Shown here: positions 4,422-32,084 of the stretch, in pieces
Numbering within the stretch: position 1 is the stretch's first letter
Layout of the letters: each line of letters starts with the position of its first letter
Source of the DNA: Yoonia vestfoldensis SKA53
GTDB lineage: Bacteria; Pseudomonadota; Alphaproteobacteria; Rhodobacterales; Rhodobacteraceae
DNA length: 64,000 nucleotides
Direction: 5' to 3'
Assembly (NCBI RefSeq): GCF_000152785.1
Contig: NZ_CH672414.1
Coordinates: 1,738,639-1,802,638 of the forward strand
The notes under the pieces: model-generated
Database searches by the model: none
What the model was told of the DNA's origin: nothing
The model's input: the letters and a program-made list of their open reading frames with translations, nothing else
Program-made: the position numbers and the translations under genes

Positions 4422-7400
4422 TTACGCGTCCTCGACCTCGATCACCCCGCCAAGGCTGCGCAAGGCACCCTTGATCTGCGGATTGACCGGAAACGGCTCG
4501 CCAAGATCAAGCTCGACCTCGCCGGGCAGATCCGCATTGGTCAGGCAGATATAGACCGGCCCACGCGCGGCGCGCACCCCGTCGCGGGCGGCACTGGCCA
4601 GAATGCTGGCAATCGTGTCAATCGCGCTGGGGCTATCGATGAACACGCGCAATCCCGCCGAACCTGCATCGGCCACCACACTGTCGATGGGCGACACCGA
4701 CCGGCCCAAAAGCTTGAGCTGGTCCCCCTCCATCGTCGCCTCGCATTGCAGCACGATCTGCGATCCTGTCTCCAGATAGGTGCGCGCGACCTCAAGCGTG
4801 TCGGAAAACATCGTGACCTCGTATTGGCCCGTTGGATCAGACAATTGTACAAAGGCGAAACGGTTGCCACGCGCCGATTTGCGTTCTTGCCGGCCTGACA
4901 CGGTGCCTGCCATCTTGACCAGCGCCGCACCCTTTTCGGCACGCGCGATCACCTCGTCCAGCGTCAATACCTGCTTGCGTTTCAGCGCGCCCATGTAATC
5001 GTCAAGCGGATGGCCCGACAGATAGAACCCGATGGCCTTGAATTCCTCGGCCAGCCGTTCGGCAGGCAGCCAGTCATCGCCAAAGGCAAGGCGCGGTTCG
5101 GGCAAATCCTCGCCCGCATCACCGAACAGCGATACCTGGTTAGATGATTTTTGATCATGGATCGCCGCCGAATAGGCAGTCAGCGCATCCAGCGATGCCA
5201 TCACCCGCCGCCGGTTGCGGTCAAGCACATCAAACGCCCCTGCGCGGGCGAGCATCTCCAGCGACCGTTTGCCGATGCGCTTGAGATCACAGCGCCGCGC
5301 GAAATCGAACAGGTTCACGAATGGTTTCGGTGTCGCCCCGGACGCAGATCCGGGGCCTCCGGCGGAGTGAGGCCCCGGGTCAAGCCCGGGGTGACCCTCA
5401 CGGCCCGCAACGATCAGCTTCATCGCCTCGACACCGACGTTTTTCAAAGCACCCAGCGCATAGACCAGCTTGCCGTCCTGCACCTCGAAAGTAGCACCCG
5501 ACCGGTTCACGCAGGGCGGGATGTAATCAATCCCCAGCCCTTTTTTGACCTCTTGGAAATAGACGCCAAGCTTGTCGGTCAGGTGGATATCGCAGTTCAT
5601 GACACCGGCCATGAATTCGACCGGATGGTTCGCCTTGAGCCATGCAGTCTGGTAACTGACCACGGCATAAGCTGCGGCATGCGATTTGTTGAACCCGTAA
5701 TTGGCGAATTTCTCCAGAAGGTCGAACACCTCGCGCGCCTTTTTCGGCTCCACCCCGTTGGCCTTGGCGCCGGCCTCGAATTTGGGGCGTTCCTTGGCCA
5801 TTTCCTCGGCGATTTTCTTACCCATCGCGCGGCGCAACAAATCCGCCCCGCCAAGGCTGTAACCCGCCATGACCTGCGCGATCTCCATCACCTGTTCCTG
5901 ATAAACGATGATGCCTTGGGTTTCCGCCAGAATGTGGTCGATCGACGGATGGATCGATTCCAGCTCTTTGATCCCGTTCTTCACCTCGCAATAGGTGGGG
6001 ATATTCTCCATCGGGCCGGGCCGGTAAAGCGCCACCAGCGCCACGATATCCTCGATACAGGTGGGTTTCATGCGCTTGAGCGCATCCATCATGCCAGAGC
6101 TTTCCACCTGAAACACGGCGATGGTCTTGGCAGATGCATAAAGCGCATAGGATTTCGCATCATCCAGCGGGATCGCCCCGATATCATATTCAAAACCTAC
6201 GGGCGGCTGATACAGCACATCGCCATCCGCGGTGACATTCAGGCTGCGCCCCGCCTTGCGGATCAGTTCCACTGCATTGTGGATCACGGTCAGGGTTTTC
6301 AGCCCCAGAAAGTCGAATTTTACCAGCCCCGCCTGTTCCACCCATTTCATATTGAACTGGGTTGCGGGCATGTCAGAGCGCGGGTCTTGATAAAGCGGCA
6401 CCAATTCATCCAGCGGCCGGTCCCCGATTACCACACCCGCGGCATGGGTCGATGCATTGCGCAACAGCCCCTCGACCTGCTGGGCATAGGTCAGCAGGCG
6501 TTGCACGACCTCTTCGTTCTTGGCCTCTTCGCGCAGGCGCGGCTCGTCCGCCAGCGCCTTTTCGATGCTGACGGGTTTGACGCCTTCGACGGGGATCATC
6601 TTGGATAGGCGGTCCACCTGACCATAAGGCATCTGCAACACGCGCCCCACATCGCGCACGGCGGCTTTGGACAAGAGCGCACCAAAGGTGATGATCTGCC
6701 CCACACGGTCGCGGCCGTATTTGTCCTGCACATAGCGGATGACTTCTTCGCGGCGGTCCATGCAAAAGTCGATGTCGAAATCAGGCATCGACACACGTTC
6801 GGGGTTCAGAAAGCGTTCAAACAGCAGGCTATAGCGCAAAGGGTCCAGATCGGTGATCAGCAGCGCATAGGCGACGAGCGAGCCAGCCCCCGACCCCCGC
6901 CCCGGGCCTACGGGAATCCCGTTGTCCTTGGCCCATTTGATGAAATCGGCGACGATCAGGAAATAGCCGGGAAACCCCATGCCCTCGATGATGCCAAGCT
7001 CGAAATCGAGCCGTTTTTCGTAGTCCTCGATACTTGCCGCATGCGGGATCACGGCCAGCCGCGCGCGCAGCCCTTCTTGCGCTTGCCTACGCAATTCGGC
7101 GACTTCGTCATCGGCGAATTTGGGCAGGATCGGCGCCCGTTTATAGGCTTTGAAGGCGCAGCGCTGTGCGATCTCGATCGTGTTTTCCAAGGCTTCGGGC
7201 AGATCGGCAAACAGCGTCGCCATTTCGCGTGGGGATTTGAAATAATGCTGCGGCGTCAGGCGGCGGCGCGGTTCTTGTTGATCGACATAAGCGCCATCCG
7301 CGATGCAGATCAGCGCGTCATGGGCTTCGTAAAAGGCCGATTTTGGGAAATAGACGTCGTTGGTTGCGACCAGCGGCAGACCCTTGGCATAGGCCATTTC

Positions 7401-7988
7401 GATATGGCCACGCTCGGACAGCCGTTCCGCCTCGGGCAGGCCACCATCGACAGGGTGGCGCTGCAATTCGACATACAACCGCTGCGGATAGATCGCAGCC
7501 AACTGATCCAGCAACAGATCGGCCTTGGCCTGTTGGCCGTGGCGCAACAACCGCCCGATGGGGCCGTCCGGGCCACCCGTCAGGCAGATCAGCCCCGTAC
7601 CATATTGCGCCAGCTCATCCACGGTGACCTGCGGCAATTCACCGGCAGCATCCAGATAGGCGCAGGAATTCAGCTTCATCAGGTTCAGATAACCCGCCTC
7701 GTTCTGCGCCAGCAGCACGATTGGGGCGGGTGGTTCGGGCCGTTTGCCGGGGTCAGGGGTGGCATAGGCCAGATCAAGCTGGCAACCGATGATCGGCTGC
7801 ACGCCTGCCTTGACAGCGTATTCGGAAAACTCCAGCGCGCAGAACATGTTGTTGGTATCGGTCACGGCGACCGCAGGCATCCCCATGCCCGCCGCCAATG
7901 GGGCCAGCGATTTGACCGGCACCGCCCCTTCCAGCAAGGAATATTCGGTATGGGTGCGCAGGTGGATGAATCGGGGGCTGTCTGTCAT
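4422..7988 (-). CDS. dnaE: DNA polymerase III alpha subunit (replicative polymerase)
   Basis: Catalytic subunit of the chromosomal replicase, 1188 residues. In order it shows an N-terminal PHP domain (FIHLRTHTEYSLLEGA), a palm with GPGRGSGAGSLVAY and the catalytic PDFDIDFCMDRR acidic motif (about 400-411), the NASTHAAGVVIG and KFDFLGLKTL segments of the polymerase core, the helix-hairpin-helix region, and a C-terminal OB fold (VKMAGTVSGRQERKSARG). It is slightly longer than the E. coli protein. Part of the excess is a Gly/Pro/Ser-rich stretch at about residues 863-886, encoded by a palindromic repeat described separately. It is divergent from the ArsR-type gene, with 89 bp between starts. Confidence 0.97.
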   Translation of the reverse strand: MTDSPRFIHLRTHTEYSLLEGAVPVKSLAPLAAGMGMPAVAVTDTNNMFCALEFSEYAVKAGVQPIIGCQLDLAYATPDPGKRPEPPAPIVLLAQNEAGYLNLMKLNSCAYLDAAGELPQVTVDELAQYGTGLICLTGGPDGPIGRLLRHGQQAKADLLLDQLAAIYPQRLYVELQRHPVDGGLPEAERLSERGHIEMAYAKGLPLVATNDVYFPKSAFYEAHDALICIADGAYVDQQEPRRRLTPQHYFKSPREMATLFADLPEALENTIEIAQRCAFKAYKRAPILPKFADDEVAELRRQAQEGLRARLAVIPHAASIEDYEKRLDFELGIIEGMGFPGYFLIVADFIKWAKDNGIPVGPGRGSGAGSLVAYALLITDLDPLRYSLLFERFLNPERVSMPDFDIDFCMDRREEVIRYVQDKYGRDRVGQIITFGALLSKAAVRDVGRVLQMPYGQVDRLSKMIPVEGVKPVSIEKALADEPRLREEAKNEEVVQRLLTYAQQVEGLLRNASTHAAGVVIGDRPLDELVPLYQDPRSDMPATQFNMKWVEQAGLVKFDFLGLKTLTVIHNAVELIRKAGRSLNVTADGDVLYQPPVGFEYDIGAIPLDDAKSYALYASAKTIAVFQVESSGMMDALKRMKPTCIEDIVALVALYRPGPMENIPTYCEVKNGIKELESIHPSIDHILAETQGIIVYQEQVMEIAQVMAGYSLGGADLLRRAMGKKIAEEMAKERPKFEAGAKANGVEPKKAREVFDLLEKFANYGFNKSHAAAYAVVSYQTAWLKANHPVEFMAGVMNCDIHLTDKLGVYFQEVKKGLGIDYIPPCVNRSGATFEVQDGKLVYALGALKNVGVEAMKLIVAGREGHPGLDPGPHSAGGPGSASGATPKPFVNLFDFARRCDLKRIGKRSLEMLARAGAFDVLDRNRRRVMASLDALTAYSAAIHDQKSSNQVSLFGDAGEDLPEPRLAFGDDWLPAERLAEEFKAIGFYLSGHPLDDYMGALKRKQVLTLDEVIARAEKGAALVKMAGTVSGRQERKSARGNRFAFVQLSDPTGQYEVTMFSDTLEVARTYLETGSQIVLQCEATMEGDQLKLLGRSVSPIDSVVADAGSAGLRVFIDSPSAIDTIASILASAARDGVRAARGPVYICLTNADLPGEVELDLGEPFPVNPQIKGALRSLGGVIEVEDA
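5332..5395 (-). repeat. Palindromic repeat inserted in frame inside dnaE
   Basis: Two imperfectly complementary arms, 5332-5358 and 5370-5395, flank an 11-nt loop and can form a long GC-rich hairpin. On the dnaE strand the arms read GTCACCCCGGGCTTGACCCG... and ...CCGGATCTGCGTCCGGGGCGAC. This resembles the abundant dispersed palindromes of alphaproteobacterial genomes that usually lie between genes. Here it is translated (HPGLDPGPHSAGG...SGATPKP) between the segment ending LIVAGRE and the conserved FVNLFDFARRCD, without disrupting the frame. Confidence 0.8.
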
Positions 7989-30674: not shown

Positions 30675-32084
30675 ATGAAGATGTTTGGTTTACCTCAGGG
30701 GATCGCCACGACCCTTTTGATTGCAGGGTTCGCTGCCAGCGCACAGGCGCAGGACATCCAGACAAAGCAATATGACGACGGTGGCGTTTACGAAGGCACC
30801 TTTGTCGATGGCCTGCAGGACGGTACCGGCACCTATCGGTTGCCAAATGGATATGAATATTCCGGCGATTGGGTTGCGGGCGAAATTCGTGGCCAGGGCA
30901 TCGCGCGCTTTCCCAACGGATCGGTCTATGAAGGTAGCTTTGCTGCGGGTAAGCCCGAGGGCCAGGGCAAGATCACCTTTGCCGACGGCGGTACTTTTGA
31001 GGGTGACTGGGTCGATGGCACTATCACCGGCACCGGCGTGGCCGAATATGCCAATGGTGTCGTCTATCAAGGCGAATTCCGCAATGCGATGCATCATGGG
31101 ATCGGTATCATGACCGGCCCTGGCGGCTATTCCTACGAAGGCGAATGGATCAACGGCATCAAGGAAGGCGAAGGCCGCATCACCTATCCCGATGGTGCGC
31201 TTTACCAAGGCAGCCTGCGCGCAGGTGAACGCGATGGCACTGGCACGCTGACCATGGCCGACGGTCTGGTCTATACCGGCGACTGGGTCGCAGGCCAGAT
31301 CGAGGGGACCGGCACGCTGACCCAACCCAATGGCGATATCTACGAAGGTGCTTTGGTTGCTGGCCGCCGCGAAGGTCAGGGCCGCATCACCTATGCCAAT
31401 GGCGACACCTATGAGGGCAGCTTCATGAGCGACCGGCGCGAAGGTGCAGGCACGTTCCAAGGTGCAGATGGTTACGTCTATACCGGTGAATGGGCGGCCG
31501 GTCAGATGTCCGGCATGGGCGAGGTCACCTATCCCGACGGGTCGGTCTATGTCGGCAGTTTTGCAAATGATCTGGCCGATGGCACCGGCAAAATCACTTA
31601 TCCTGACGGGTCAACCTATGAAGGCACATGGGTCGCTGGCGTGATCAGTGGCAAGGGCATTGCGACCTATGCCAACGGTCTGGTCTATGACGGCGAATTC
31701 CTGAACGCCCAGAACCACGGCCAAGGCAAGATGACCTATGCCGACGGCTATATCTACGAAGGCGCATGGGCCGAAGGCCAGCGCAACGGCATTGGCCGCG
31801 CGACCTATGCCGATGGCACGATTTATGTCGGCGAGTTCGTCGATGGCCAGCGCAGCGGCCAAGGCGAAATCACCCTGCCCGACGGGTTCATCTATGCCGG
31901 TGCGTGGCAGGACGGTGAGATCAGCGGCTATGGCATCGCGACCTATGCCAATGGCGATGTCTACGAAGGCAATTTCCTGCGCGGCCGCCGCGAAGGTGAC
32001 GGCACGATGCGCTATGCGACAGGGCAGCAAAGCACCGGTTTGTGGTCGGACGGGGCGTTTGTGTCGCAAACAGCGGGCGAGTGA
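30675..32084 (+). CDS. Exported MORN-repeat protein with 18 repeats
   Basis: A 469-residue protein with a Sec signal peptide (MKMFGLPQGIATTLLIAGFAASAQAQ). From residue 39 it carries 18 consecutive 23-residue MORN repeats of the type Y-x-G-x-[WFL]-x6-G-x-G-x4-x2-G, then one degenerate unit (TGLWSDG). Repeats alternate between Phe/Leu and Trp at position 5, and repeats 1-9 resemble 10-18 in register, suggesting duplication of a nine-repeat block. It should be an extended beta-sheet rod in the periplasm or on the outer surface. In bacteria such repeats are often linked to membrane or envelope binding. The function is unknown. Confidence 0.9.
   Translation: MKMFGLPQGIATTLLIAGFAASAQAQDIQTKQYDDGGVYEGTFVDGLQDGTGTYRLPNGYEYSGDWVAGEIRGQGIARFPNGSVYEGSFAAGKPEGQGKITFADGGTFEGDWVDGTITGTGVAEYANGVVYQGEFRNAMHHGIGIMTGPGGYSYEGEWINGIKEGEGRITYPDGALYQGSLRAGERDGTGTLTMADGLVYTGDWVAGQIEGTGTLTQPNGDIYEGALVAGRREGQGRITYANGDTYEGSFMSDRREGAGTFQGADGYVYTGEWAAGQMSGMGEVTYPDGSVYVGSFANDLADGTGKITYPDGSTYEGTWVAGVISGKGIATYANGLVYDGEFLNAQNHGQGKMTYADGYIYEGAWAEGQRNGIGRATYADGTIYVGEFVDGQRSGQGEITLPDGFIYAGAWQDGEISGYGIATYANGDVYEGNFLRGRREGDGTMRYATGQQSTGLWSDGAFVSQTAGE

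Follow-up and report, generated by a model that had tools for sequence, protein, structure and literature searches.

An in-frame REP-like palindrome in a recurrently lengthened loop of the replicative DNA polymerase of Rhodobacteraceae

DnaE is the product of an essential gene, and the presence of a palindromic genome repeat within the dnaE coding sequence of Yoonia vestfoldensis SKA53 raises the question of how such an element was acquired. The locus was analysed within a 64,000-nt stretch of this genome (i.e. the window), in which dnaE (4422..7988, minus strand) was identified as an ORF for the 1188-aa DNA polymerase III alpha subunit by matches to NCBIfam PRK05673 (1437 bits) and the Pfam profiles PHP, DNA_pol3_alpha, DNA_pol3_finger and HHH_6. 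A first-pass annotation had described an imperfect 64-nt palindrome that adds about 22 Gly/Pro/Ser-rich residues to the protein. This palindrome was confirmed at 5332-5395 and consists of REP unit 1 (5332..5359; GTCGCCCCGGACGCAGATCCGGGGCCTC on the plus strand, with an outer tag of TGTC) and REP unit 2 (5369..5395; inverted relative to unit 1, with an arm, CCCGGGTCAAGCCCGGG, that has three further exact genomic copies), separated by a 9-nt centre (5360..5368). Alignment with other DnaEs indicated that the net insertion is 66 nt rather than 64 nt (5331..5396, minus strand), i.e. the palindrome with one edge base per side. Lying in codon phase within the HHH_6 region, this block encodes 22 residues rich in Gly, Pro, Ser and Ala (865-886; GHPGLDPGPHSAGGPGSASGAT); the residue count and the retention of frame both stood. 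One reading frame of the REP arm contains a TGA, which the dnaE frame avoids. The RNA fold of 5325-5402 had an energy of -50 kcal/mol (z -4.2), with none of 200 dinucleotide shuffles equally good, and Rfam gave no matches across window 5000-5800. Elsewhere in the window, at 31000-32010, repeats were spaced by multiples of 69 nt (repeat entries D2, D7 and D9), and we presume that these may be MORN repeats.

The position of the insert in the protein was examined by profile matching, alignment and modelling. The best HHH_6 stretch (residues 819-864; 5397..5534, minus strand) covers profile positions 1-46 of 90 and ends in a helix (853-864) adjoining the insert; a second HHH_6 stretch was also counted. 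Alignment with the E. coli PolIII alpha (5fku) placed the insert near residues 854-857. In an AlphaFold2 model of mediocre overall quality (mean pLDDT 69, pTM 0.48), residues 866-886 had pLDDT values of <50 and lay between helices 853-864 and 893-899. Both the alignment and the model show the insert site to be a loop between two predicted helices of the HhH region. The tolerant loop proposed in the first-pass annotation is borne out by this low-pLDDT segment and by an alignment of 81 DnaEs, and the loop is presumably exposed at the surface. The insert peptide is predicted to be, probably, a disordered or floppy linker. Hydrophilic or small residues (AEGKPQRSTDN) accounted for 91% of 367 REP-encoded residues in 12 inserts.

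Copies of the repeat were counted in the 3.07-Mb genome. The arm CCCGGGTCAAGCCCGGG was present in four exact copies, including that in dnaE, and in 15 copies at ≤2 mismatches. At ≤3 mismatches, 45 matches were found as compared to 28 for a reversed-pattern control, indicating that the weaker matches are partly due to chance. Nine of the 15 copies lie in inverted pairs of ~60 nt and a few of the others are chance-like or lie within genes. Searches for the inverted-pair pattern gave 8 forward and 9 reverse matches versus none in either direction for the control, in keeping with the earlier description of the palindrome as a genome repeat. No second copy of the arm within 3 mismatches was found in the 64-kb window besides that of dnaE. 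An ORF scan of 15 loci, the sole source for gene context, indicated that the family occurs both inside genes (the in-frame dnaE copy) and outside genes (pairs near gene ends). An in-frame REP-like segment, EPGPEAAANAEVPDQVRDAPT, was also seen within the valyl-tRNA synthetase gene (valS) at C1:3036044 (L018; ORF L018:2-2896, minus strand). REP-like arms are likewise translated in pyruvate dehydrogenase E1 beta and E2 (C1:1118858, L028; C1:1120253, L009), where they lie in Pro/Ala-rich linkers after lipoyl domains and may be chance features of GC-rich linkers. Across the 56 sampled genomes of the window's GTDB genus, inverted-pair matches were present in 25, with at least two forward matches in 20; the control gave 11 matches in total over the 56.

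The repeat was then compared with known REP families. For GTAG REPs and REPINs, which go with a RAYT (TnpA-REP), an inverted REP pair is the presumed mobile unit. The window element shares the inverted REP pairs of this system but differs in that its genome lacks a Y1 transposase. The first-pass annotation had likened the palindrome to the in-frame elements of Rickettsia and had set it apart as lying in an essential alphaproteobacterial gene; the likeness is apt, whereas the precedent was understated, Rickettsia being itself alphaproteobacterial. The account of the CGTC-tagged REP superfamily by Di Nocera, De Gregorio and Rocco (2013; PMC3733652) places the R. conorii RPE-4 and RPE-6 in that superfamily, as CGTC-4 and CGTC-1, and records a REP in R. 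conorii dnaE, the relevant section giving no position for it. Both cases share with the window repeat palindromes in frame within genes, and the occurrence of one family inside and outside genes is likewise of the Rickettsia type. Four alphaproteobacteria with 1.2-1.3 Mb genomes had no insert at the DnaE loop that holds the window insert.

As described in the same source (PMC3733652), CGTC REPs are short palindromes that often occur as head-to-head pairs, with a 5-nt loop and an NGTC-type outer-edge tag; they are mostly alphaproteobacterial, some lie within ORFs and no tyrosine transposase is linked to them. The window repeat is likewise dispersed as head-to-head pairs in an alphaproteobacterium, and its genome gave no PF01797 matches. 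With respect to the outer tag (CGTC, TGTC or CCTC), the window copy carries TGTC at one edge and GGTC at the opposite edge, such that one of two tags fits, and CGTC is the outer tag in several other genomic copies. The loop, CTTGA, has 5 nt and the stem ~7–8 bp, which is close to the CGTC description (a stem of 8–9 bp and a loop of 4–5 nt), but the stem opens with G/C where AT pairs are described for positions 1–2, and the unpaired tail has CCTC, in this and many other copies, rather than a sequence near CCA. As judged from sequence features, the element resembles a CGTC-type head-to-head REP dimer and is a GC-rich relative of the four listed CGTC families, not a member of one of them. The full names Rhodobacter, Roseobacter, Ruegeria, Paracoccus, Silicibacter and Dinoroseobacter are absent from the main text of PMC3733652. 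As that 2013 article already reports REPs in frame within genes, R. conorii dnaE among them, the kind of insertion is known. Neither recurrent insertion at one polymerase loop nor Rhodobacterales cases were found in the titles and abstract text searched, and the new part is the recurrence at one DnaE loop.

A possible mobiliser was sought with the PF01797 (Y1 transposase) profile, which gave no matches in the Y. vestfoldensis genome while 5 of 14 control genomes were positive. Within the genus, Y1 matches over the cut-off were unrelated to richness in REP pairs (3/20 pair-rich versus 5/36 other genomes), as were matches including those below the cut-off (5/20 versus 6/36; P = 0.50). A RAYT or other Y1 transposase was rejected as the mobiliser on the basis of both findings. 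Y1 transposase fragments were seen at many contig ends of one genome (G028), pointing to a multicopy IS200/IS605-like element.

Presence or absence of the insert was assessed in close relatives, as the first-pass annotation had suggested. The 22-residue block was found in 0 of 80 DnaEs from the contig database, among which the nearest genus-named protein was that of Loktanella sp. PT4BL (87% in the best segment); a lone REP unit occupies this position in two of the 80 (L068, Mangrovicoccus algicola; L082, Roseovarius confluentis). The block thus differs between relatives and the repeat has other genomic copies, such that neither a conserved DnaE length nor a palindrome unique to this gene was observed and the original reading of an inserted repeat was upheld. 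The site was seen in 55 of the 56 genus genomes, and eight have the full REP pair in dnaE. The pair is read as PGLDPG, the window copy type, in G000, G022, G054 and G055, as PGLAR, PGLTR and PGPTR in G044, G049 and G051, and as PGVTR in G021. Three sister genomes share the insert with the window genome, and surrounding relatives are without it, as one block. In a DNA tree of the genus (53 rows, insert left out), the eight carriers fell in three places with four changes, and a common clade for all eight was rejected (p-AU 1.4e-87). The fourth change is at G048 (L124), which has a short loop, DSETAKP, and is nested with 100/100 support in the second clade, where the three remaining members all have the REP pair. 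This empty site is possibly due to loss or excision of the pair, with the AU test leaving an alternative placement unrejected (P = 0.161). Inserted dnaE genes occurred in 8 of 20 pair-rich genomes (at least two forward pair matches) versus 0 of 35 others (Fisher P = 1e-4, a test that ignores kinship).

Recurrence was surveyed across the Rhodobacteraceae with an empty DnaE segment as query against 394 genomes (393 genera). Matches were obtained in 379, spans were read for 347 (the remaining 32 being those with the best scores among the unlisted genomes) and 344 of these could be read at the site, three genomes (G435, G123 and G210) being cut or unresolved there. The dnaE match of G435 (C111; L175) lacks ~80 residues across the loop region, as an assembly error or a real deletion. 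Inserts of +12 to +96 residues were present in 17 of the 344 genomes. Nine contain a REP unit (G000, G049, G105, G135, G153, G171, G207, G399 and G281), with singles (G399 and G281), pairs and a tandem of two pairs (G105) in different reading frames; single-unit inserts were unremarkable in folding (z -0.5 for G281, -1.0 for G399 and -1.6 for L082) and were assigned by sequence. In five (G400, G167, G119, G075 and G411) the sequence is of another kind and its fold surpasses those of 95% of dinucleotide shuffles, with G400 having 111 residues in the interval and a fold z of -8.4. The other three (G425, G246 and G147) stayed below this threshold, and a palindrome reading was dropped for these; by eye only, G147 has the look of a decayed REP array. 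A 42-residue interval without a palindrome (z 0.3) was seen in L071. Comparison of 11 inserts with the retrieved loci gave no clear genomic copies of the non-REP inserts, 7 of the 11 matching only themselves. On a quick family tree (178 rows, enriched for inserted rows, with a long-branch warning elsewhere in the tree), parsimony gave 12 changes for REP-type inserts and 20 for all long inserts, or 11 and 13, respectively, with branches <95 collapsed, each change being a gain or a loss.

Among 81 full-length DnaEs (residues 40-1150), insertions of at least 10 aa occurred only at 865 (4 rows) and those of at least 6 aa at 494 (1 row), 865 (6 rows) and 1007 (3 rows). A class-wide survey of 385 genomes gave 370 with matches, 150 being among the matches listed. 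A second search of 22 of these survey genomes, selected largely because their matches were split or weak, showed no insert at the DnaE loop in the 16 readable through it (G694, G813, G786, G696, G573 and G534 were cut or unparsed). In five of the 16 (G462, G463, G742, G782 and G819), another DnaE loop, just upstream, is lengthened. A different DnaE loop, directly before the YALGAIKGVG motif, is longer by roughly 15–45 residues in five genomes of other alphaproteobacteria (L229, L230, L233, L234 and L235), and in L230 looks like simple GGC-rich repeats.

We consider it highly probable that the dnaE insert is an in-frame CGTC-type REP dimer, tolerated in a permissive disordered loop that has been hit repeatedly in Rhodobacteraceae. 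A non-autonomous REP dimer would have entered dnaE in an ancestor of the window's clade, and the essential gene would have survived because the length was a multiple of three and the frame lacked the TGA. The resulting Gly/Pro/Ala/Ser-rich linker would be weakly constrained, with probably no function of its own. The same loop has taken REPs and other long inserts many times, presumably because no other place in the polymerase is as permissive for added residues.

The recurrence at the loop is clear from these surveys but does not by itself separate permissiveness from target preference. A far-reaching reading, and an unlikely one, is that the HhH loop is a family-wide site to which mobile palindromes are targeted or funnelled, with inserts of up to 96 extra residues tuning the polymerase through a longer loop beside the DNA-binding HhH motif. 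Targeted insertion as such, in which the machinery that moves the repeats would favour this part of dnaE for its sequence or replication-fork context, was judged quite improbable. It would account for the acceptance by one loop of REP singles, pairs, a tandem of two pairs and other sequences, for the lack of any other place with at least 10 extra aa in the 81 DnaEs and for the statement in PMC3733652 that genes of DNA synthesis and repair are numerous among those with REPs. However, the site is shared by elements with no sequence relationship, whose edges, compared by eye, lie several codons apart within the loop, as expected for a permissive loop, and shorter lengthening at this point (+4 and +9 aa) involves no REP units.

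Selection on the insert was estimated in the four sister copies, which differ at 6–13 of 78 nt. Flank rates (699 codons) were 0.36–0.50 for dS and 0.007–0.022 for dN, and insert rates (26 codons) were 0.09–0.31 and 0.06–0.16, respectively. The insert dN is thus 5–13-fold the flank dN but 0.17–0.35 of the flank dS, indicating that constraint is weak but not absent. The lower dS of the insert could reflect residual constraint, or a dS inflated by codon bias, or conversion among REP copies. Maintenance of the insert for a function, either as a regulatory hairpin of the mRNA or through a new protein contact made by the polymerase, would fit its slower change relative to flank synonymous sites, its retention in four sister genomes with flank dS of up to 0.5 and the strong folds of six of the eight pair-bearing genus copies, including that of the window. 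Hairpins are retained in the second clade (z -5.1, -4.5 and -2.9). Against this, the high insert dN and the possible loss in G048 are joined by the decay of the hairpin in two of the four sisters (z for dinucleotide shuffles: G000 -4.9, G022 -3.3, G055 +0.4, G054 -0.7; simple shuffles similar), despite which the reading frame is open in all four. The data for the window's clade favour a tolerated linker over a kept hairpin, and a retained function appears very unlikely. Ordinary variation in loop length, with a palindrome that arose by chance in GC-rich coding sequence, has a negligible likelihood, for although the loop varies in length in the absence of REP units (mostly 15 to 24 residues following LGALKNVG) and 3 of the 17 long inserts lack a clear palindrome, near-identical arms elsewhere in the genome contradict coincidence for the window copy, as do its fold and the presence of the 22 aa as one block.

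With respect to biology, tolerated REP insertion at this loop of PolIII alpha, near E. coli residues 854-857, indicates a place that is likely to accept tags. For the Rhodobacteraceae, the locus amounts to a natural repeated experiment in which selfish palindromes become protein, with inserted and empty sisters. As one loop of an essential enzyme has been hit many times, in varied frames and arrangements and with empty sisters at hand, it allows tests of whether translated REPs are adaptive or simply tolerated, of the rate at which palindromy is lost and of why genes of DNA metabolism are prominent among those that carry REPs.
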